A stretch of DNA of 19,105 bases from Acidimicrobiia bacterium (GTDB lineage Bacteria > Actinomycetota > Acidimicrobiia > UBA5794 > JAOTWH01). Under the pieces are notes generated by a model. The model saw only the letters and a program-made list of their open reading frames with translations. It was not told the origin of the DNA and made no database searches. The translations under genes were made by a program, and so were the position numbers. Positions 1-6,761 of this stretch are shown in pieces. Numbering within the stretch: position 1 is the stretch's first letter; each line of letters starts with the position of its first letter. The stretch covers positions 1 to 19,105 of the forward strand of contig JAOTWH010000019.1 in assembly GCA_029863035.1 (NCBI GenBank), read 5' to 3'.

Positions 1-3
1 TCC

Positions 4-47
4 TCGTTCCTCGTTCTGACGAAAGACGAAGAACGAAAGACGAACGA
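4..47 (-). terminator. Nested inverted repeat beside selC 3' copy 1
   Basis: Two nested inverted repeats lie here: TCGTTC at 4-9 pairs with GAACGA at 42-47, and TCGTTC at 11-16 pairs with GAACGA at 31-36. The stretch is built from short ACGAA/GACGAA units. On the minus strand it starts 3 bases after the tRNA-Sec 3' fragment and contains short T runs. If copy 1 is the outermost attachment site, this would be the original chromosomal sequence downstream of selC, perhaps its terminator. The dyads are seen; the terminator role is inferred. Confidence 0.3.
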
Positions 48-50
48 CTA

Positions 51-110
51 GCGGAGGCGGATGGGAATCGAACCCACCAGGGACTTTTCAGCCCCTCAAC
101 GGTTTTGAAG
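51..110 (-). mobile_element. attachment site, tRNA-Sec 3' fragment copy 1
   Basis: On the minus strand this reads as the 3' half of tRNA-Sec: the 3' part of the anticodon arm with the UCA anticodon, the variable arm, the T arm and the 3' acceptor strand. There is no D arm or 5' acceptor strand, so it cannot make a tRNA. Identity to the intact gene (5402-5494) stops just 5' of CTTCAAA, in the anticodon loop, a usual crossover site of tyrosine recombinases. The variable arm differs from the intact gene, but the changes preserve pairing, so this fragment may come from another functional selC allele. Confidence 0.8.
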
Positions 111-120
111 TTCGGTGGCG

Positions 121-135
121 GCCGTCCGTCGGGTG
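121..135 (+). repeat. arm-type repeat 1a
   Basis: The 15-mer GCCGTCCGTCGGGTG, preceded by TTCGGTGGCG, recurs with one mismatch at 182-196. Start-to-start spacing is 61 bp, and the same pair with the same spacing is found at 2925-2939 and 2986-3000. Direct repeats beside a tRNA core site could be arm-type binding sites for an integrase or excisionase. The repeat is seen; the role is inferred. Confidence 0.5.
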
Positions 136-181
136 CCAAGGGGTGCCGGGGCGTGGTGCCGTGTGGGGAGCTCGGTGGATT

Positions 182-196
182 GCCGTCCGTCTGGTG
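182..196 (+). repeat. arm-type repeat 1b
   Basis: This is GCCGTCCGTCTGGTG, preceded by CTCGGTGGAT. It is the second member of the pair in copy 1 and is identical over 15 bases to both members of the copy 2 pair (2925-2939 and 2986-3000). It stands 2 bases before the perfectly conserved 37-bp block at 199-235. Confidence 0.5.
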
Positions 197-326
197 GTGG
201 CGAGTGTGGTCTGTTCTCGGGAGGTTCGTTAGCAAGCGGTTTGCAGCGCCGGAGCAAGGATTGACGCGCGCAACGACCTAGCGACGGCGTGTCAGTGTTG
301 AGGGATGTTCCTACGGTGGGCACGCG

Positions 327-586
327 TAACCGAACGCCGAAGTGCCGATCTCGCGCACCGCCCCCTTGCGGGCGTTATCGCCCGTATTGGGTGATCTGAT
401 GCGCGAAGCGGCTCACCCGCCCTCGAAGCCCGTGGAGGTTCGAGTCCTCTCAGGCACGACGACGGAGCGCGGGTTTCCGTCCGCGACAACGTCGCCGGGG
501 CCGTGAAGAAGACATTGGACGGAGCGGGCATCGACATCCCGTTCCCTCAGAGGGTCGGCGAGCTGCACAACGACGCGGTCGGCTGA
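327..586 (+). pseudogene. degraded 3' end of an MscS-type mechanosensitive channel gene
   Basis: Two reading frames together resemble the cytoplasmic end of MscS-family channels. The first, from about 330 to 452, reads PNAEV, then GDLMREA and SKPVEVRVLS. The second, from 455 to the stop at 584-586, reads HDDGARVSVRDNV, AGAVKKTLDG and AGIDIPFPQRVGEL. The AGIDIPFPQR ending is typical of the family. About 15-20 residues that normally join the two parts are missing and the frame changes near 452-455. No membrane part or start is present. The fragment abuts the stop codon of the minus-strand lipoprotein at 587. The C-terminal motif is the firm part; the upstream frame is less certain. Confidence 0.5.
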
Positions 587-1141
587 TTACGACGGGTTCA
601 CGGTGATGGTGGCGGTGAACTCACCAGCGTTGTTCCCGACGCCGCTGTCATTGATCCCAAGGAAGAGGCGCCCCTCCGTGTCGGCTTTGGACAGAAGCTG
701 GCTGCCGACATGGAATGGTGCCCCGGCTTCGCCGATCCGCCCGATCAAGCCGGCGTGGTTCGCCTCCTTGAGCCCTTCTACGTTGAACTGCCGAGCTGTC
801 GGGCTCGGGTTGCCGTTCGGGTCATTGAGGGCAACGTCAGGCGTCGACGGGGTGATGGCGCCGTCGGCCTCGATCAACACCCTGTCGTCGATGCTGAGGT
901 CGATGCCGGTGTCGGTCCACTGTTCGGTGCCGGGCACCACGACAGACACCGGTTCCGAGGACTCTCCAGAGCCACAAGCCGCCGCGACCAACGCCAGAGC
1001 GATGATGGCTGCGGCGGACCGGAATCCTGGCCGAACCTGTCGGCTCATCTCCTTCCTGGCTCCGCTCAACGCCGAGATCAGCCGTATGCTCTTCGCCCGT
1101 GGTTTCGGTGGTGGCTGCATGGGTCGGTCTTTGGTTCGCAT
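587..1141 (-). CDS. secreted lipoprotein with PA-IL (LecA)-like galactose-binding fold
   Basis: This encodes a lipoprotein of 184 residues from the ATG at 1141, which has GAGGAG six bases upstream. A second ATG at 1048 follows AGGAAGGAG directly and would give 153 residues with the lipobox LVAAAC at a normal position (Cys25 rather than Cys56), so it is a serious alternative start. After the lipid anchor and a short linker, the domain reads WTDTGIDL, then a stretch ending GLIGRIGE, then GRLFLGINDSGVGNNAGEF. This order (W-x-DTG, LIGRIG, L-x-IND...NN-G-F) matches the PA-IL/LecA lectin-like fold, in which the ND and NN residues bind calcium and galactose. The loop between D and NN is shorter here than in LecA, so sugar binding is unproven. 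It is transcribed divergently from a sugar-sensor-type GntR/LacI regulator. Other galactose-binding-like folds remain possible. Confidence 0.75.
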   Translation of the reverse strand: MRTKDRPMQPPPKPRAKSIRLISALSGARKEMSRQVRPGFRSAAAIIALALVAAACGSGESSEPVSVVVPGTEQWTDTGIDLSIDDRVLIEADGAITPSTPDVALNDPNGNPSPTARQFNVEGLKEANHAGLIGRIGEAGAPFHVGSQLLSKADTEGRLFLGINDSGVGNNAGEFTATITVNPS

Positions 1142-1147
1142 GTCGTG

Positions 1148-1153
1148 CTCCTC
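1148..1153 (-). promoter_or_regulatory. ribosome binding site supporting the upstream lipoprotein start
   Basis: GAGGAG on the minus strand stands six bases before the ATG at 1141. It favours the longer start over the ATG at 1048, although the longer form has an unusually long stretch before the signal peptide. Confidence 0.5.
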
Positions 1154-1211
1154 GCCTTGAATTCCGTACGCTCTCACCAATCAATCACAAGTGACCGTGG
1201 ATCGGTCGATA

Positions 1212-1233
1212 AGTACTATAGTACTAATACTAT
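1212..1233. promoter_or_regulatory. palindromic operator and overlapping divergent promoters
   Basis: Two overlapping dyads fill the divergent intergenic region. AGTACTATAGTACT at 1212-1225 is a perfect 14-bp palindrome. ATAGTA at 1218-1223 and TACTAT at 1228-1233 form a second inverted repeat. Both contain the GT...AC core common in GntR-family operators. TACTAT could also serve as a -10 box toward the regulator, and the same bases read ATAGTA toward the lipoprotein. The likely picture is autoregulation plus control of the lipoprotein by the GntR/LacI protein. The palindromes are seen; the binding protein is inferred from position. Confidence 0.6.
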
Positions 1234-1254
1234 GAATCAATCCTGTCAAGCGGC

Positions 1255-2361
1255 ATGATCACCCAACATCTGAGTGTTGATTCGCAGTCGTCCATACCGC
1301 TCGTAGTTCAGCTGAGCTCGCAGGTGGCGTGGCTGATCGCGCGGGGTGAAGTGAGCGAGGGCGAGCGTCTGCCGCCCATCCGCGGTCTTGCCGAGGTGCT
1401 CGGCATCAATTTCAACACCGTGCGCGCCGCCTACAAACAGCTCGAAGCGGACGGCCTCGTTGTCACCCAACGCGGGCGAGGAACTTCGGTGCTCAGCTAC
1501 CAGCGAGAACGCGACCTGGCGAGCAAAGCGAGCACGCGTAGCTTCACGATCGGGGTGATCATCCCCACCCATCTCGAGTTCTACGCCCCGTTTCTGAATG
1601 CGCTCGACTCGGCCTCAACCGATCCCTCTCTCTTGTTCATCTGTGTCGCGCATCAGGATCCGGCGAGGGGCCTTAGTTACCTCGACCAGTTGGTCGCCAA
1701 GAACGTCGACGGCATCATCGTCGCCGGGGCCATGGTTCCCTCCGAGATCGAAGCAGGCATCGACGGACAGCCGCCCATCGTGTTCGCTGATTTTCCTGGC
1801 GCTCCAGGGCCGTCGGTTCTTTTTGACCACGAGCAAGGCAGTGCGCTCGCCACTGCGCACATGTTGGAACATGGCCACCGGCGGATCGGCTTCATCGCCC
1901 CACCCCGTGAGCTGCCGTCAGCGGCACCGAAGTACGCCGGCTACGAACGTGCACTGGCACAGGCCGGAGTCGCTCTCCGGGCCGAGCTGATCGAGACCGC
2001 TCCCAACTTCGCCGTCGAGTCGGGCCACCGCGGCGCTCTTCGGCTGCTCGACCGGGACGACCCGCCGACGGCCATCGTCGCGGCAAGCGACTCGCTCGCG
2101 ATCGGCACGATCCGCGCCGCACGAGAACTGGGCGTTTCGATCCCAAAGGAGCTCGCTCTCGTCGGCAACGACAACATCGCATCGGCCGGCGACACCGCGC
2201 CGCCGTTGACGACAATCATGGCTCCCGCCGCAGAGCTGGGAAGTCGCTCCATCGGCATGCTGGAACAGCTCATCGCAGGGCAGCCTCTCGAACACGCAGC
2301 CATCACTCTCGGCACTCGCCTGGTAGTGAGGCAATCGTGCGGGTGCCAACCCGCACACTGA
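1255..2361 (+). CDS. GntR/LacI-type transcriptional regulator (AraR-like architecture)
   Basis: This is a 368-residue regulator. Residues about 5-80 are a GntR winged helix (IPLVVQLSSQ, GERLPPIRGLAEVLG, NTVRAAYKQLEADGLV, RGRGTSV). Residues about 95-365 are a LacI-type sugar-binding sensor: FTIGVIIP, VDGIIVAGA, HMLEHGHRRIGFI, YAGYERAL, AIVAASDSLAIG, LALVGNDN, with the LacI-like tail VRQSCGC. A GntR DNA-binding part on a LacI sensor is the layout of Bacillus AraR, where an arabinose-type sugar releases DNA. The ligand here is unknown. It diverges from the PA-IL-like lipoprotein across a palindromic operator, its likely target. The ATG at 1255 has no clear ribosome binding site. It lies inside the selC-associated insertion. 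Confidence 0.85.
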   Translation: MITQHLSVDSQSSIPLVVQLSSQVAWLIARGEVSEGERLPPIRGLAEVLGINFNTVRAAYKQLEADGLVVTQRGRGTSVLSYQRERDLASKASTRSFTIGVIIPTHLEFYAPFLNALDSASTDPSLLFICVAHQDPARGLSYLDQLVAKNVDGIIVAGAMVPSEIEAGIDGQPPIVFADFPGAPGPSVLFDHEQGSALATAHMLEHGHRRIGFIAPPRELPSAAPKYAGYERALAQAGVALRAELIETAPNFAVESGHRGALRLLDRDDPPTAIVAASDSLAIGTIRAARELGVSIPKELALVGNDNIASAGDTAPPLTTIMAPAAELGSRSIGMLEQLIAGQPLEHAAITLGTRLVVRQSCGCQPAH

Positions 2362-2386
2362 ACTTGTGACGCCATGAAGCTGAACC

Positions 2387-2424
2387 GGGTCGTCACGACC
2401 GGCGCTCAGATCCCCAGCTCTGGG
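2387..2424 (+). terminator. possible hairpins after the GntR/LacI gene
   Basis: CCGGGTCGT at 2387-2395 can fold back on ACGACCGG with one bulge, and CCCAG/CTGGG at 2413-2424 makes a second short stem. They stand 26-60 bases after the stop codon. There is no T run, so a terminator role is weakly supported. Confidence 0.25.
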
Positions 2425-2852
2425 CGAAAGCGAGGGCACCACCACAACGAGCCGATCAGAATGAAATCAGCCGGTGATGTGCGGTTGGCCTATCGCTCGG
2501 CGGAAGCGCAGGGCAGGGTTATGTGTGGTGCGGACGATGTACCGTCGCTGGAAGCCGTGGCATCGACAACCGCGTCATGGCAACCGATACGCCGGCTCCC
2601 ACGGCCCGCCCGCAGCCGTCGTTTGCCAGGTGACCGAGCCGCCGCCACGCCACCGTGAACACCTCAGCTACCGCATCCTCAACCCGATCCCGGCAGACCC
2701 GACGCGGGCAATACCCATACACACTCCGATAGTGACTGCGGTACAGAATGACACCCGGCAGGGCAACTCCGCGGCCGATGAAGCATCCGAGATCCGGCAC
2801 TATGCGCTCCTGCCTGTCGGTCCCCTCGCTGCAGGCGAGCAACAACGCTCGA
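2425..2852. other. non-coding or decayed stretch
   Basis: I find no intact gene between the GntR/LacI regulator and direct repeat copy 2. The only recognisable content is the minus-strand ECF sigma fragment at 2627-2752. A plus-strand open frame runs across much of this stretch and on through the tRNA-like repeat, but it has no family signature and is judged chance. Confidence 0.5.
2627..2752 (-). pseudogene. fragment of an ECF sigma factor (region 2)
   Basis: The minus-strand frame reads LYRSHYRSVYGYCPRR, then RDRVEDAVAEVFTVAWRRL. This matches the region 2 core of ECF sigma factors, including the D-A-x-x-E-x-F-x-x-AWRR segment that the intact sigma factor at 3789-4364 shows as DAAAETFSIAWRR. 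After AWRRLGHL the similarity stops. No region 4 or credible start is found, so this is a remnant. It lies just left of attachment copy 2 and in the opposite orientation to the intact sigma gene, so it is not a simple tandem copy of that module. Confidence 0.55.
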
Positions 2853-2854
2853 TA

Positions 2855-2914
2855 GCGGAGGCGGATGGGGATCGAACCCACCAGGGATCTTTCGACCCCT
2901 CAACGGTTTTGAAG
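2855..2914 (-). mobile_element. attachment site, tRNA-Sec 3' fragment copy 2
   Basis: Over 60 bases this differs from the intact selC 3' half at one position, in the T arm (2870). Like copy 1, it lacks the 5' half of the tRNA, and identity ends at the same base in the anticodon loop. An element inserted into the 3' end of a tRNA gene leaves the intact gene at one end and such a fragment at the other, so 2855-5401 would be one inserted segment and 51-2854 a second. Confidence 0.8.
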
Positions 2915-2924
2915 TTCGGTGGCA

Positions 2925-2939
2925 GCCGTCCGTCTGGTG
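2925..2939 (+). repeat. arm-type repeat 2a
   Basis: GCCGTCCGTCTGGTG stands 10 bases after the anticodon-loop breakpoint, at the same offset as the repeat at 121-135. It is identical to 2986-3000, 61 bp further on. Confidence 0.5.
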
Positions 2940-2985
2940 TTATCGAGTGCCTTCGTGTGCTGCCCTGTATGAAGCTCGGTGTATG

Positions 2986-3000
2986 GCCGTCCGTCTGGTG
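2986..3000 (+). repeat. arm-type repeat 2b
   Basis: This is the second member of the copy 2 pair. Both the sequence and the 61-bp spacing match copy 1, although the bases between the pair have diverged. That suggests selection on the repeats themselves, as for protein binding sites. Confidence 0.5.
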
Positions 3001-3216
3001 CTGGCGAGTGTGGTCTGTTCTCGGGAGGTTCGTTAGCAAACGGTTAGCAGCTCAAGGATGCCTCGTCCGGACCACCAATCCCGAATCCGAGTCTTCGCCC
3101 GGCGGGATCCCGTCCAGGAGTATCCGAGACGATCGCGGCAGTAGCGAAGGTCGAGCCGCCCCGACGCAGTCTGCGATGTGTCACCGGCTCAACAAGCCAA
3201 TGGAAGAGACATGGAC

Positions 3217-3243
3217 TGTCCACTATCCGTGTGTTCCGGACAC
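3217..3243 (+). promoter_or_regulatory. gapped motif TGTCCAC-N13-CGGACA, upstream of the lipoprotein
   Basis: TGTCCAC at 3217-3223 and CGGACA at 3237-3242 flank exactly 13 bases. The same arrangement with the same gap recurs at 3740-3766, upstream of the ECF sigma gene. TGTCC and GGACA are also reverse complements, with centres 21 bp apart, about two helical turns. It could be an ECF -35/-10 pair or an operator for a dimeric protein. The lipoprotein start lies 69 bases downstream. Confidence 0.5.
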
Positions 3244-3312
3244 TGCCTCCGTAGGGGCAGCAGATGGTGCCGAATCGAGGCATGACGCGGCCCATCTCAG
3301 AAGGAGGCAATC

Positions 3313-3720
3313 ATGCGCAAACGGCTTTTACAGACCGGTCTTGCGGTGGCTCTGATCGCTACCGCCTGTGGGGACTCCGGAAACGGTGGACTTACCGTTG
3401 GGGAGTTGACAGGGCGCTGGAAGGCGGGAGGGCTCACCTTCCTCGAATTCAGTGAAGACGGCACCTACCGCATTGCACTCACCGACAACTTCACCAACTC
3501 CACGGTCGACCAAGGGCAATTCACGCTTGACGGGACACTGTTCACCTTCATTTCAAACGAGAACAGCACGGCTTGTGACGCAGGTCAACGCGGGAACTAC
3601 GAGGTGGAGGTGCTCGAGAAGGGAACGTCCGGAGTTGACCGACTGATACAGGTTCAGTCGGAAGATGAATGCAGCACTCGAGGATCCACTGGAGATCTCA
3701 CCCTGGTGCGCTTGTCGTGA
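3313..3720 (+). CDS. small secreted lipoprotein of unknown function
   Basis: This encodes a 135-residue protein. The ATG follows AAGGAGG with a five-base spacer, an excellent ribosome binding site. Residues 1-19 are a lipoprotein signal (RKR, a hydrophobic core, then the lipobox IATAC with Cys19). The mature part has GELTGRWKAGG and LEFSEDGTYRIAL, which resemble the first strands of small beta-barrel or lipocalin-like lipoproteins. Two further cysteines, in NSTACDAG and EDECST, could form a disulfide. It stands just upstream of an ECF sigma/membrane protein pair and shares a 5' motif with the sigma gene, so it is likely part of that regulon. No family can be named with confidence. Confidence 0.8.
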   Translation: MRKRLLQTGLAVALIATACGDSGNGGLTVGELTGRWKAGGLTFLEFSEDGTYRIALTDNFTNSTVDQGQFTLDGTLFTFISNENSTACDAGQRGNYEVEVLEKGTSGVDRLIQVQSEDECSTRGSTGDLTLVRLS

Positions 3721-3739
3721 GAGGTGATGTCACATGGGG

Positions 3740-3766
3740 TGTCCACGACCTAAGTCTCCCGGACAG
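3740..3766 (+). promoter_or_regulatory. gapped motif TGTCCAC-N13-CGGACA, upstream of the ECF sigma gene
   Basis: This is the second occurrence: TGTCCAC at 3740-3746, 13 bases, then CGGACA at 3760-3765. It lies 22 bases before the GTG start and 9 bases before the ribosome binding site, a fitting place for a promoter. Autoregulation by the ECF factor is the simplest reading. ECF promoters often have a TGTC-type or GGAAC-type -35 box, but this exact pair is not one I recognise. Confidence 0.5.
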
Positions 3767-3775
3767 TCCCTCCGT

Positions 3776-3781
3776 GAGGAG
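3776..3781 (+). promoter_or_regulatory. ribosome binding site that sets the sigma factor start
   Basis: GAGGAG ends seven bases before the GTG at 3789. The in-frame ATG at 3804 has no comparable site. Frames extending further upstream would overlap the lipoprotein gene and include the shared motif. Confidence 0.6.
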
Positions 3782-3788
3782 TGAAAAG

Positions 3789-4364
3789 GTGTTGAATCGG
3801 CCCATGACGTGGCAGACCGATCTAGGCGCGACCTTCGATGGCTTCGTGCGCGCTCACGCCAAGCCGGTCCTGGCCTACTGCTTGCGACGATCAGCCCACG
3901 CCGACGCCCACGATGCCGCGGCCGAGACGTTCTCGATCGCGTGGCGCAGATTCGACCAGGTTCCCGAGGGTGAGGCAGCGCTCTACTGGCTGTTTGGCGT
4001 TGCCCGCAAAGTCCTGGCGAACCAATACCGCTCCCAACAGCGGCGGCGTCGTCTCGCCTCGCGGTTCGGTGGGATGGCGACATCTGCCGAACCCTCGGCG
4101 GAGACGATCACGCTGCGAAACCAACGCGATCAGGAAGTCGTCGACGCCCTGGCTCGCCTCAACGAAGCCGACCGCGAAGTCCTGGCACTGATCGTGTGGG
4201 ACGAGGTTCCTAGAGAGACCGCGGCGGACATGCTGAATATCTCCGTCGAGGCAGTGCACAAGCGGTTCCAGCGGGCTCTTCGCCGCATGGAGCGAGAACT
4301 GAAACGCCTGAACGGACACGGCAGCACGACCCCACCGATCATCGAGGAAGGAGGAGCGACATGA
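3789..4364 (+). CDS. ECF-type RNA polymerase sigma factor
   Basis: This encodes a 191-residue sigma-70 family factor of the ECF type. Residues 15-85 are region 2 (FDGFVRAHAKPVLAYCLRR, DAAAETFSIAWRRFDQVPEG, LYWLFGVARKVLANQYR). Residues 115-172 are region 4 (VVDALARLNEADREVLAL, WDEVPRETAADMLNISVEAV, HKRFQRALRRMEREL), with the usual helix-turn-helix. No regions 1 or 3 are present, as expected for ECF factors. GTG is chosen as start because of its ribosome binding site. The stop overlaps the next ATG by four bases, so sigma factor and membrane partner are translationally coupled. The signal that activates it is unknown. Confidence 0.9.
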   Translation: MLNRPMTWQTDLGATFDGFVRAHAKPVLAYCLRRSAHADAHDAAAETFSIAWRRFDQVPEGEAALYWLFGVARKVLANQYRSQQRRRRLASRFGGMATSAEPSAETITLRNQRDQEVVDALARLNEADREVLALIVWDEVPRETAADMLNISVEAVHKRFQRALRRMERELKRLNGHGSTTPPIIEEGGAT

Positions 4365-5245
4365 ACGCACTCGAACGGCTCGAACGGGCCAATCCGGTGC
4401 CCAACCATGACCGCCTATTGGACGAACCTGGAGCCATGGATGCCTTCGTCTTCACCGTCGAGGAGAAGAGTGAGATCACGCACAAGAACGTCACCGATAG
4501 CGAGCCATCCGGTGCGGCTGGAGAACAGATATCTAGTGCAGCGCCCGAATCCCGCCTGATTCGAGGGCTGAGGAATCTACGTCGGGGGGAGCACAACTGG
4601 TTGGTAGCCGCCGCCGCCGCCGTAACCGTCCTCGCTGCCGGGGCGGCACTGGTGATGCTCACCAGCCCTAGCGGGGATTCAGACGCGGCAGCACCTGCCG
4701 GGTCAGATCAGGTTGCCGTCGTGCTGTCTGCTTATGACGCGCTGAACGCAGGTGACATCGATGCATGGATCGGGCATTTCACGGACGAAGCCATCGTCTT
4801 TGGGGCGACCACACCCATCGCTCGCAACCTTTATGAGGTTCAGTCCGCGGCCAACTACCAGGCCGTATTGGTGGAACGCTGCCGTCGGGTCGGGCCAACG
4901 TCGCAGGGCGAAGCGCAGGTGGAATGCACCATCACGGAAGCCGACGACTTCCACGGTGCGGGCGGCATCTCGCTGACGAGAAATGAGCTCTTCGTCGTGA
5001 ACGAAGACGGCCAGATCAGCGAGGTCAGTGCGCAGGTGATCGCCTTCACCCAGCCGGGCTATTACGTGTTCAATCAGGCGTTCTTCGACTGGCTGCGCAT
5101 CGCACATCCCAACGTCCACGACGAAATCAGGCCGGAGCTCACCACACACTTGCCGGAGAGGCCGGAGCACATGCGCACCGCGCTCGACTTCGTGGATGAG
5201 TTCCTCGCTCAGTCCGACGTGTACCCGATCACCGACGGGTCGTAG
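4361..5245 (+). CDS. membrane protein in anti-sigma position with NTF2/SnoaL-like outer domain
   Basis: This encodes a 294-residue single-pass membrane protein. Residues 1-79 are cytoplasmic and start with ERLERANPVPNHDRL, a layout I associate with actinobacterial proteins coupled to ECF factors. Residues 80-101 are an Ala/Val-rich membrane helix after RNLRRGEHNW. Residues about 117-235 resemble an NTF2/SnoaL-like fold (VLSAYDALNAGDIDAWIGHF, TDEAIVFGA, NELFVVNEDGQISEV). Residues 236-294 are a further outer segment. It overlaps the sigma gene by ATGA and has AAGGAGG upstream. The likely job is to hold or modulate the sigma factor in response to something sensed outside. No zinc-binding H-x3-C-x2-C anti-sigma motif is seen, so the anti-sigma role rests on context. 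Confidence 0.7.
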   Translation: MNALERLERANPVPNHDRLLDEPGAMDAFVFTVEEKSEITHKNVTDSEPSGAAGEQISSAAPESRLIRGLRNLRRGEHNWLVAAAAAVTVLAAGAALVMLTSPSGDSDAAAPAGSDQVAVVLSAYDALNAGDIDAWIGHFTDEAIVFGATTPIARNLYEVQSAANYQAVLVERCRRVGPTSQGEAQVECTITEADDFHGAGGISLTRNELFVVNEDGQISEVSAQVIAFTQPGYYVFNQAFFDWLRIAHPNVHDEIRPELTTHLPERPEHMRTALDFVDEFLAQSDVYPITDGS

Positions 5246-5277
5246 GCCAGGGGTTGACCGACCTGATGACGCCTCGG

Positions 5278-5299
5278 CCCACCTCTCTTGTGTGGTGGG
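5278..5299 (+). terminator. hairpin after the sigma/membrane protein pair
   Basis: CCCACC at 5278-5283 pairs with GGTGGG at 5294-5299 around a 10-base loop, followed by a T-rich stretch. It lies 33 bases after the stop codon. The stem is short for a terminator, but the position fits. Confidence 0.4.
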
Positions 5300-5401
5300 A
5301 GGATTCCTCTTGTCACCGGGGCGCACTGAGCCCGGCTAGTAGCAACACAACGGCCAGAACCCGACTATGGAGCCCGAGCTTGATGAAGATGCAGTCTTTT
5401 C

Positions 5402-5494
5402 GCGGAGGCGGATGGGAATCGAACCCACCAGGGATCTTTCGACCCCTCAACGGTTTTGAAGACCGCGGAGCCCACCAGGCACTCTGACGCCTCC
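5402..5494 (-). tRNA. selC: tRNA-Sec (anticodon UCA)
   Basis: On the minus strand the gene begins GGAGGCGTCAGAG at 5494. The anticodon stem GCGGT/ACCGT encloses CTTCAAA, giving anticodon UCA, which reads UGA. A long variable arm follows, AGGGGTC/GATCCCT around GAAA. The T arm is GTGGGTTCGATTCCCAT, and the acceptor closes with CCGCCTCCG. The UCA anticodon, the long variable arm and the extended acceptor/T-arm region identify selenocysteine tRNA; tRNA-Ser would not read UGA. CCA is not encoded. This implies a selenoprotein-making genome, although no selA, selB, selD or selenoprotein gene is in the window. Its 3' half is repeated twice downstream as attachment sites. Confidence 0.92.
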
Positions 5495-5522
5495 AGGTTC
5501 GAGACTATCGGAGCCGACGGAG

Positions 5523-6761
5523 CTAGAGGGCCGGTCGTCCCGAGCTGAAGACAGCCACCGAAATGGCGCTAAGCGCCGTCACCTGGCCTACAAGGAACCC
5601 GACTCCCACTCGGATATCGGGATCACCTGAAGCCACGACGATGGCCAATGCGGCCGCCGCCAGCGCCACAACCCAGGCGACGGCCAGGAACCCGGTGTGG
5701 CCCCGCGCCACAAGGATCTGCGTTGCTGCCAGCGACGCCATCGATGCAGCCACTCCGGCAACTATCAATCCGGCCAGAGCAGAGCTAGGCCGGAACTCGG
5801 CACCGAAGAGCAGTTCGACCGCCACCGGCCCCAATACCCGCCCGACGCCATAGCCAGCAGCCGCCATGATCAGACCGAAAACAACGATGCGACGACCCCA
5901 GACGTGAAGCGCACGCCCATGACCCTCAGCCACAGCTCGGGACATCGGATGCAGGATCCGTGCCACCAGGCTGTATCCAAGGGTCAGGGGCGCTCGCATC
6001 AAGATGAGGGTGAAGAAGAAGACACTGCTCACCCCGGGAGCGGCATCCATCGCCTTGACCACGATGGGCCCGGCGGCCAGGACGATGTTGGATGCGCCGT
6101 TGGCGACCACGTAGCTGCCAAGGAATTTCGCGGCGCTGGGAGCGGTGTGCGGCTCATCGTCGCGCACGATCCGAAACGGCCGCCAGGCGAAGATGACTAA
6201 GAACCCGGTCACCATCGCCCACCCAACCGGAACGCTGCGAGGCGCCGCCGCCAGCACCGCCAACAGGACAATGAATCGGAGCGTGGACTCGCCTGCGGTG
6301 GCGAAGCCGTAATTGCGGTACTGCATGGAGCCGGCCAGCCGGCCTCGCCCAAACGCGAAGACCCCATACCCCAGAACTATTAGGCCAGCCTGGAGTGCAT
6401 GAACGCCTTCGCCGCTCAGCAGCTGATCGCGACCGGCGTACAGGACGACGCTCACCGCCACGGCGGCAACTCCCACGGTGCCAGCCAGCAGAGGCAGATC
6501 TTGGCGAAGCGGGTGCGAAGGAGAAATCGCCAGCCTACGAATGGTCAACTGTTCGATCGGCAGCAAGACGATGGCGAACGCCAGGAAATGAATGGTCCAC
6601 AGCTGAGCGATGGGCTCGAACTCGATCTTTCCGAGCGCCCGACCTCCAACCAATTGGAACAGGTAGGCCATGAGGGCTGCGACGACCACGCCGACCACCA
6701 TCCCCACCGTTCCGTCTCCGCGAGAACGCAGGCGCGGAGAATCGGGCAAGGGTTCGGCCAT
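5523..6761 (-). CDS. polysaccharide flippase-like integral membrane protein
   Basis: This encodes about 412 residues from the ATG at 6761; a TTG start at 6791 would add ten residues. GGAGG lies 12 bases before the ATG, which is rather far. The protein has about 12 hydrophobic segments from MVVGVVVAALMAYLFQLVGG to the C-terminus. The layout is that of the MOP superfamily (Wzx-like O-antigen/polysaccharide exporters): a loop after helix 2, GSMQYRNYGFATAGESTLR in the middle, and ELLFGAEFRPSS before the last helices. The last resembles the conserved LLFG..Y motif of these flippases. No glycosyltransferase genes are adjacent, so the substrate is unknown. Its stop lies 28 bases upstream of the 5' end of selC on the same strand. 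Confidence 0.7.
   Translation of the reverse strand: MAEPLPDSPRLRSRGDGTVGMVVGVVVAALMAYLFQLVGGRALGKIEFEPIAQLWTIHFLAFAIVLLPIEQLTIRRLAISPSHPLRQDLPLLAGTVGVAAVAVSVVLYAGRDQLLSGEGVHALQAGLIVLGYGVFAFGRGRLAGSMQYRNYGFATAGESTLRFIVLLAVLAAAPRSVPVGWAMVTGFLVIFAWRPFRIVRDDEPHTAPSAAKFLGSYVVANGASNIVLAAGPIVVKAMDAAPGVSSVFFFTLILMRAPLTLGYSLVARILHPMSRAVAEGHGRALHVWGRRIVVFGLIMAAAGYGVGRVLGPVAVELLFGAEFRPSSALAGLIVAGVAASMASLAATQILVARGHTGFLAVAWVVALAAAALAIVVASGDPDIRVGVGFLVGQVTALSAISVAVFSSGRPAL

Follow-up and report, generated by a model that had tools for sequence, protein, structure and literature searches.

The selenocysteine tRNA (tRNA-Sec) gene, selC, is the integration target of the locus of enterocyte effacement in Escherichia coli. 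More generally, a review of integrative elements outlines a course in which insertion is followed by decay to a cis-mobilizable element (CIME) and then by further insertion (PMC5704250), and the classical streptococcal CIMEs with cargo measure 1.2-13 kb (PMC7563491). Among the islands inserted at ssrA in Dehalococcoides, 15 are without an integration module and 16 have one (PMC3146451). A survey of actinomycete integrative and conjugative elements (AICEs) reported a tandem pair that excises singly as well as jointly, and no AICE in Acidimicrobidae (PMC3218068). Crossover within the anticodon loop, one of the standard sites, is recorded for 2083 of the 3919 islands of Islander, whose account knows tRNA genes (tDNAs) as targets of tyrosine integrases only (PMC4383910), and this loop corresponds to the 7-bp overlap (PMC8371274). 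In the present work we describe a locus in the 19,105-nt stretch JAOTWH010000019.1 (hereafter the window), where an intact selC gene is followed downstream by two apparently inserted segments, E1 and E2, each bordered by a displaced 3' fragment of the same tRNA gene and neither carrying a recombinase.

Three copies of the 3' half of the tRNA-Sec gene

The tRNA-Sec gene is the sole intact tRNA gene found in the window. It lies in the following arrangement:

5402-5494, minus strand: intact tRNA-Sec gene (selC), anticodon TCA (ARAGORN; Rfam RF01852, 72.8 bits)
2915-5401: inner segment E2, about 2.5 kb, genes apparently intact, without recombinase
2855-2914, minus strand: middle 3' tRNA-Sec fragment, between E1 and E2 (repeat search; 1 of 60 nt unlike selC, in the T-loop)
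111-2854: outer segment E1, about 2.7 kb, remnants along with two genes that look intact, without recombinase
51-110, minus strand: outermost 3' tRNA-Sec fragment (repeat search; 4 of 60 nt unlike selC, as two compensatory variable-arm pairs)

A 60-nt repeat (D2) is present in three copies in the same orientation, at 51-110, 2855-2914 and 5402-5461, with start-to-start distances of 2804 and 2547 bases. Both displaced copies are contained in a longer repeat of 199 nt (D1; 49-247 and 2853-3051, 87% identical). Because of the length and identity of these repeats, we infer that they are not due to chance. In the tRNA orientation, the bases directly before CTTCAAA are TCCGCGGT in selC and CCACCGAA in both fragments. 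In the tRNA-Sec fold, CTTCAAA makes up the whole 7-nt anticodon loop, and the identity with selC opens, in each fragment, at the first base of this loop. Past the 3' terminus of the tRNA this identity stops, and the flanks of the three copies diverge there, except for a TA common to two of them. When scored alone against RF01852, the fragments reached 39.2 and 35.8 bits (E values of 2.5e-5 and 1.9e-4), both under the gathering score of 47.

The initial annotation of this DNA, made from the sequence alone, had placed the tRNA-Sec gene and its two fragments at these very positions, and ARAGORN, Rfam and the repeat search gave the same coordinates. It had also proposed tandem attachment sites at selC, which is borne out by the three-copy repeat, the arm shared by both segments (see below) and the break at the anticodon loop. 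The locus has the layout on which Islander-type detection relies, i.e. an intact tDNA with a displaced 3' fragment downstream on the same strand, and the break agrees with the anticodon-loop crossover of tyrosine integrases, with an overlap that would itself be 7 bp long.

We observed that the four changes of the outermost fragment amount to two full pair swaps in the stem of the variable arm (U-A to C-G and C-G to U-A). Four changes in 60 positions hit two pairs of this 6-pair stem in 3e-5 of all placements, before re-pairing is even required, a figure that was computed post hoc, once the pattern had been noticed. Since all four differences are two re-paired stem pairs, we infer that the outermost fragment was probably selected within a functional tRNA, and that it would be the working half of another selC allele. 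A displaced half of this kind fits insertion at a tRNA gene, because the incoming element completes the gene with the 3' half that it carries and the old half is moved aside. By this accretion logic, the 3' 60 nt of the present selC gene (5402-5461) would have been brought by E2.

A shared arm with repeats adjoins each fragment

Directly beyond each of the two fragments, both segments begin with the same arm:

111-247, minus strand: P-type arm of E1, with arm-type repeats at 121-135 (1 mismatch) and 182-196 (blastn, pattern search)
2915-3051, minus strand: P-type arm of E2, with arm-type repeats at 2925-2939 and 2986-3000 (blastn, pattern search)

The two arms align by blastn over 137 bp with 84.7% identity, 21 of the 137 positions being different, and the arm is absent beside the intact selC gene. 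A 15-base word, CACCAGACGGACGGC, occurs twice in each arm, 61 bp apart and adjoining CTTCAAAACCG, with one change in one of the four copies. With up to three mismatches, it has 7 matches in the window for 1.62 expected and a maximum of 6 in 200 shuffles. None of the four arm copies has more than one mismatch, and each of the three matches outside the arms has three; as the word was drawn from the arm itself, some of this excess is built in. The repeat goes beyond this word: its unit spans about 41 bases at 2970-3010 and 2910-2949 for the inner arm and 28 bases for the outer arm, and scores as high were reached in 0 and 3 of 5000 shuffles, respectively, which preserve base composition only. The unit of about 41 bases includes CACCGA(A/G)CTTCA, in which the half-core is followed by the beginning of the anticodon loop. 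These repeats look like the arm-type sites of a tyrosine integrase, lying on one side of the core.

We also observed that the inner repeat of each arm (169-196 and 2970-3010) holds a decayed half-core, CACCGAGCT, which is followed by TCA in E2. The arm therefore looks like a tandem duplication, with a 61-bp period, of an arm site together with a half-core.

The copies also bear on whether the contig was correctly assembled. A misjoining of contig pieces at the 60-nt repeat could be imagined in what is probably a metagenome contig, with a near-repeat at three places and a contig end close to one of them, and 2855-2914 in particular may be a mis-join. However, the three copies are mutually different and so are the arms, and for that reason they do not represent one collapsed or duplicated sequence; we thus regard an assembly artefact as very unlikely.

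Two probable successive insertions at selC

The reading that we prefer, with a probability of about 0.74, is that a selC-specific integrase inserted two elements in turn and that both are now most likely decayed CIMEs that have no integrase. The enzyme would be specific for the anticodon loop of tRNA-Sec and, because of this tRNA target and of the break in the anticodon loop, most likely a tyrosine recombinase, now absent or encoded off the contig. In a first step, E1 would have joined selC at the anticodon loop and restored the gene by means of the 3' half that it carried, the old half being displaced outward to 51-110. In a second step, E2 would have entered the rebuilt gene, and the 3' half supplied by E1 would have been displaced in turn to 2855-2914. 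Each element would leave a P arm with its integrase-binding repeats at its own outer end, and the youngest one would adjoin selC. The genes of E2 are apparently intact and E1 contains a sigma factor remnant, which fits the newest insertion adjoining selC; E1 seems to be older than E2, although it also keeps two apparently intact genes. Both would be decayed elements keeping their attachment sites and cargo, and would now be mobile only with an integrase provided from elsewhere. The fragments and their precise break, the arms with repeats in both segments, the 3' halves that fold as tRNA and the lack of an integrase in E1 and E2 are observed, and the order of the insertions, the class of the enzyme, the decay and any present mobility all belong to this reconstruction.

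Several results weigh against it. Six-frame Pfam scans of E1 and E2 (111-2854 and 2915-5401; E limit of 10, the HMMER filters dropping most matches above about 0.1) detected no integrase, excisionase or recognisable remnant, and no arm-type repeat is present on the other (P') side of E1 or E2. A foreign origin is not shown by composition, because codon use is mostly host-like, the codon score of four of the five segment genes being inside the range of 11 flank genes, and because the tetranucleotide divergence is slight (of 14 windows, 1-2500 ranks first with 0.226, just ahead of the next one with 0.216). Pattern scans of the genome collection gave no relative in which the site is empty or otherwise occupied. 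Exact patterns for the arm block and for the arm pair had 0 matches in viral contigs, and BLAST of the arm alone against plasmids returned nothing at E up to 1. Searching phages with 49-260 (E up to 10) gave 68 records; in the 20 that are listed, similarity is confined to the tRNA portion or to weak, short stretches, the best E value being 0.001. In addition, the class of the enzyme is not certain, since the islands at ssrA in Dehalococcoides rely on a serine recombinase (PMC3146451).

Compositional foreignness was considered and is mostly absent, with the exception of the E2 lipoprotein gene, the sole segment gene whose codon score falls under the range of the flank genes; the GC content of the segments is 61-64% vs 62% for the flank. 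The host-like codon use of most of the cargo would agree with a segmental duplication of the tRNA fragment and its flank by ordinary recombination, with no integrase involved. But the break exactly at the anticodon loop, the stop at the 3' end of the tRNA, the folding of the 3' halves as tRNA and the repeats of the arm all argue against such a duplication, which we find extremely improbable.

What the segments lack and what they share

The six-frame scans revealed no recombinase, relaxase or phage family in E1 or E2. The integrase gene that Islander-type detection expects within the island is lacking and, as in CIMEs, there are neither integrase nor conjugation or mobilization genes while attachment sites are recognised, by sequence only, at both ends. 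These scans and the blastn comparison uphold the initial annotation, which had described two inserted segments with no recombinase. When seven proteins were compared with PHROGs, the matches were to DNA-binding, sigma-factor, regulator and unknown families, only the regulator and the sigma factor being recognised, and PADLOC had no match for five proteins. Because of these two results, a phage satellite or a defence island was set aside as unsupported.

Apart from the arm, E1 and E2 share no long stretch: outside the arms, the longest other blastn matches listed are at most 35 bp long with E values of at least 0.02, and the arm homology ends at 247 and 3051. The 21 differences between the arms are weakly clustered (780 of 20,000 shuffles show clustering at least as strong), which would suggest selection on the arm; as a proof of selection, this clustering was dropped as too weak.

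An arm that is the only long shared stretch and stops at these two positions, arm repeats that are retained despite 21 differences, and the lack of any integrase remnant in six frames could also point to elements that are non-autonomous by design, consisting of an attachment site and cargo and moved in trans by the selC integrase of another element, like gene cassettes. However, the same picture would result from loss of the integrase before the two elements diverged or from independent complete deletions; no helper, third copy or circle was seen, and the weak clustering adds little to this design. We consider it unlikely. Unlikely, too, would be its extension to a whole cassette family of Acidimicrobiia, with an arm of about 137 bp, two repeat units, a tRNA-Sec 3' half and no enzyme, stacked at selC by an integrase acting in trans, so that the 3' half of the host selC is exchanged for an equivalent allele at every insertion. 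Since published cases point that way, decay is probably likelier than a non-autonomous origin, and loss of the integrase would be the likeliest reason for its absence.

Host, contig limits and search for relatives

The host looks actinobacterial, judging from a flippase encoded in the flank. This protein has 144 relatives including itself, and the 7 of the 120 listed that name a bacterium are all Acidimicrobiia, with at most 46% identity, in line with the actinobacterium-like genome proposed initially. One further relative among those listed has a hydrothermal vent metagenome as its source.

Judging from the longest contig given for its own proteins, the window is apparently a whole contig of 19,105 bases, probably metagenomic, and its left flank consequently stops 50 bases past the outermost fragment. 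Positions 1-50, at the apparent contig end, are of low complexity with CGTTCGTCTTTCGTTCTTCG-type repeats and 48% GC, compared with 61-64% for the segments and the flank.

E1 and E2 could then be the inner end of a larger selC island, the integrase of which would lie to the left of the contig and with which the accreted parts would still move. The contig seems to end in low-complexity sequence just past the outer fragment, and streptococcal CIMEs are found in tandem with integrase-bearing elements, CIMEs in such tandems being the only ones that the search was able to detect (PMC7563491). But in that study, among the rows of Table 2 listed, it is an integrative and conjugative element (ICE), an integrative and mobilizable element (IME) or a decayed ICE that adjoins the target gene, which is not the case here. 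We hold a larger island to be a minority possibility, rather unlikely as it stands; it overlaps with the two successive insertions that we prefer, so that the likelihood given to one is not exclusive of the other.

Further searches were carried out. In the genome collection, a flippase pattern gave 163 pattern matches, none of them a relative, and a pattern for the variable arm and anticodon stem of selC gave 0, being perhaps too strict (31 bases with four ambiguous positions). In viral contigs, the selC pattern and a junction pattern each gave 0, and a pattern for the E2 protein family gave 23 pattern matches, with no relative. By BLAST, 1-5600 matched one phage record, inside tRNA-Sec, and five plasmid records; in four of these the match is at tRNA-Sec, and in the fifth a LacI-family regulator gene aligns with part of the E1 regulator.

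Genes carried by the two segments

The outer segment E1 contains:

587-1123, minus strand: putative lipoprotein (called by eye; no Pfam match)
1255-2361, plus strand: transcriptional regulator with a GntR helix-turn-helix and a LacI-type sugar-binding domain (Pfam PF00392, PF13377)
2627-2854, minus strand: remnant of region 2 of an extracytoplasmic function (ECF) sigma factor (alignment over 2627-2740)

The inner segment E2 contains:

3313-3720, plus strand: small putative lipoprotein (open reading frame; no Pfam family; signal sequence judged by eye)
3786-4364, plus strand: ECF-type sigma factor (Pfam PF04542, PF08281)
4361-5245, plus strand: membrane protein with a SnoaL-like region (4-base overlap with the sigma factor gene)

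The sigma factor remnant was recognised by comparing the E2 sigma factor with E1 alone (tblastn, 42% identity over 38 amino acids at 2627-2740, E value of 9e-8). Its best NCBIfam E value is 0.007, far under the cut-off, and it has no Pfam match; by eye, a sigma-like string extends to 2852 in another frame, reaching up to the tRNA fragment. The membrane protein of E2 has a weak SnoaL_2 match and weak anti-sigma matches, all under the cut-off, and could possibly be the anti-sigma partner of the E2 sigma factor. It belongs to a set of 30 related proteins including itself, two of which are named Acidobacteria, with a query coverage of 14-15%.

The E1 lipoprotein has 293 relatives including itself. 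About two thirds of it recurs, often with 60-90% identity, in proteins of 98-303 amino acids (120 listed of the 293), and one relative carries a SnoaL-like domain. A PA-IL-like domain (PF07828) is assigned in 2 of the 120 listed; it was confirmed in one of the relatives (P0250), and Pfam matched neither P0151 nor three further relatives. The recurring two thirds of the lipoprotein may perhaps be a widely shuffled domain.

Two short stretches inside E1 were also noted. Positions 425-461 (plus strand) resemble a tRNA from its T-arm to its 3' end, with matches to phage tRNA-Leu, tRNA-Arg and tRNA-Pro at E values of 0.02, 1 and 4 (among 20 of 636 records listed) and no match in E. coli or to the Rfam tRNA family; they are possibly a second, unrelated attachment scar within E1. 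A few bases further, 473-586 (plus strand) holds 37 codons and a stop with similarity to the C-terminal end of MscS channels (NCBIfam E value of 0.17, profile positions 252-273 of 286), with no match in the PDB. BLAST of the region 360-590 against plasmids (E up to 10) gave 116 records, the 20 listed having E values of 0.2 to 8.

Comparison with known systems

The locus is a nucleotide-level record of what appear to be two successive insertions at a tRNA gene, the order of which can be read, and the displaced selC allele that it contains shows compensatory change. The Islander filter rejects candidates with no integrase (PMC4383910) and the streptococcal study states that its own method missed single CIMEs (PMC7563491). 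Loci of this kind are thus discarded by Islander and by other finders requiring an integrase, so that arrays of integrase-less elements may be under-counted.

The novelty initially attached to this tandem array is smaller than supposed, since stacked islands with no integrase are known in Dehalococcoides (at ssrA) and in streptococci, and tandem insertions at tRNA genes are known in actinobacteria. The target selC is also known already. What appears to be new is the lineage, for which we found no earlier report: in our searches of the open-licence literature, none of the titles and abstract openings listed describes a selC insertion in Acidimicrobiia or actinobacteria.

The ssrA islands of Dehalococcoides are likewise in tandem and have direct repeats of a single-copy RNA gene as borders. 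However, they depend on a serine recombinase and insert in the T-loop of the tmRNA gene with a 20-bp repeat, whereas here the break lies in the anticodon loop and the fragment is 60 nt long (PMC3146451). The AICEs Fean5518 and Fean5534, at a tRNA-Lys gene of Frankia, are also an actinobacterial tandem at a tRNA gene but, unlike E1 and E2, they encode integrases and excise (PMC3218068). The inovirus Pf8 of Pseudomonas apparently has tRNA-Sec as its target, as is the case here, and differs in having its own integrase gene. In the Pf8 record, this gene (431-1594) is next to the annotated tRNA-Sec, apparently the same target gene.

Compared with the CIMEs known, for example, from Streptococcus, the locus has no visible integrase-bearing neighbour, its target is tRNA-Sec and its host is Acidimicrobiia-like; E1 and E2 are putative derivatives of an ICE or IME, and no relative of the arm was found in the viral contigs and plasmids searched or among the phage records listed. 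Like those CIMEs, however, E1 and E2 keep their attachment sites, have no integrase or transfer genes and stand in tandem at the 3' end of the target gene (PMC7563491, PMC5704250), and their sizes fall within the published range (PMC7563491).

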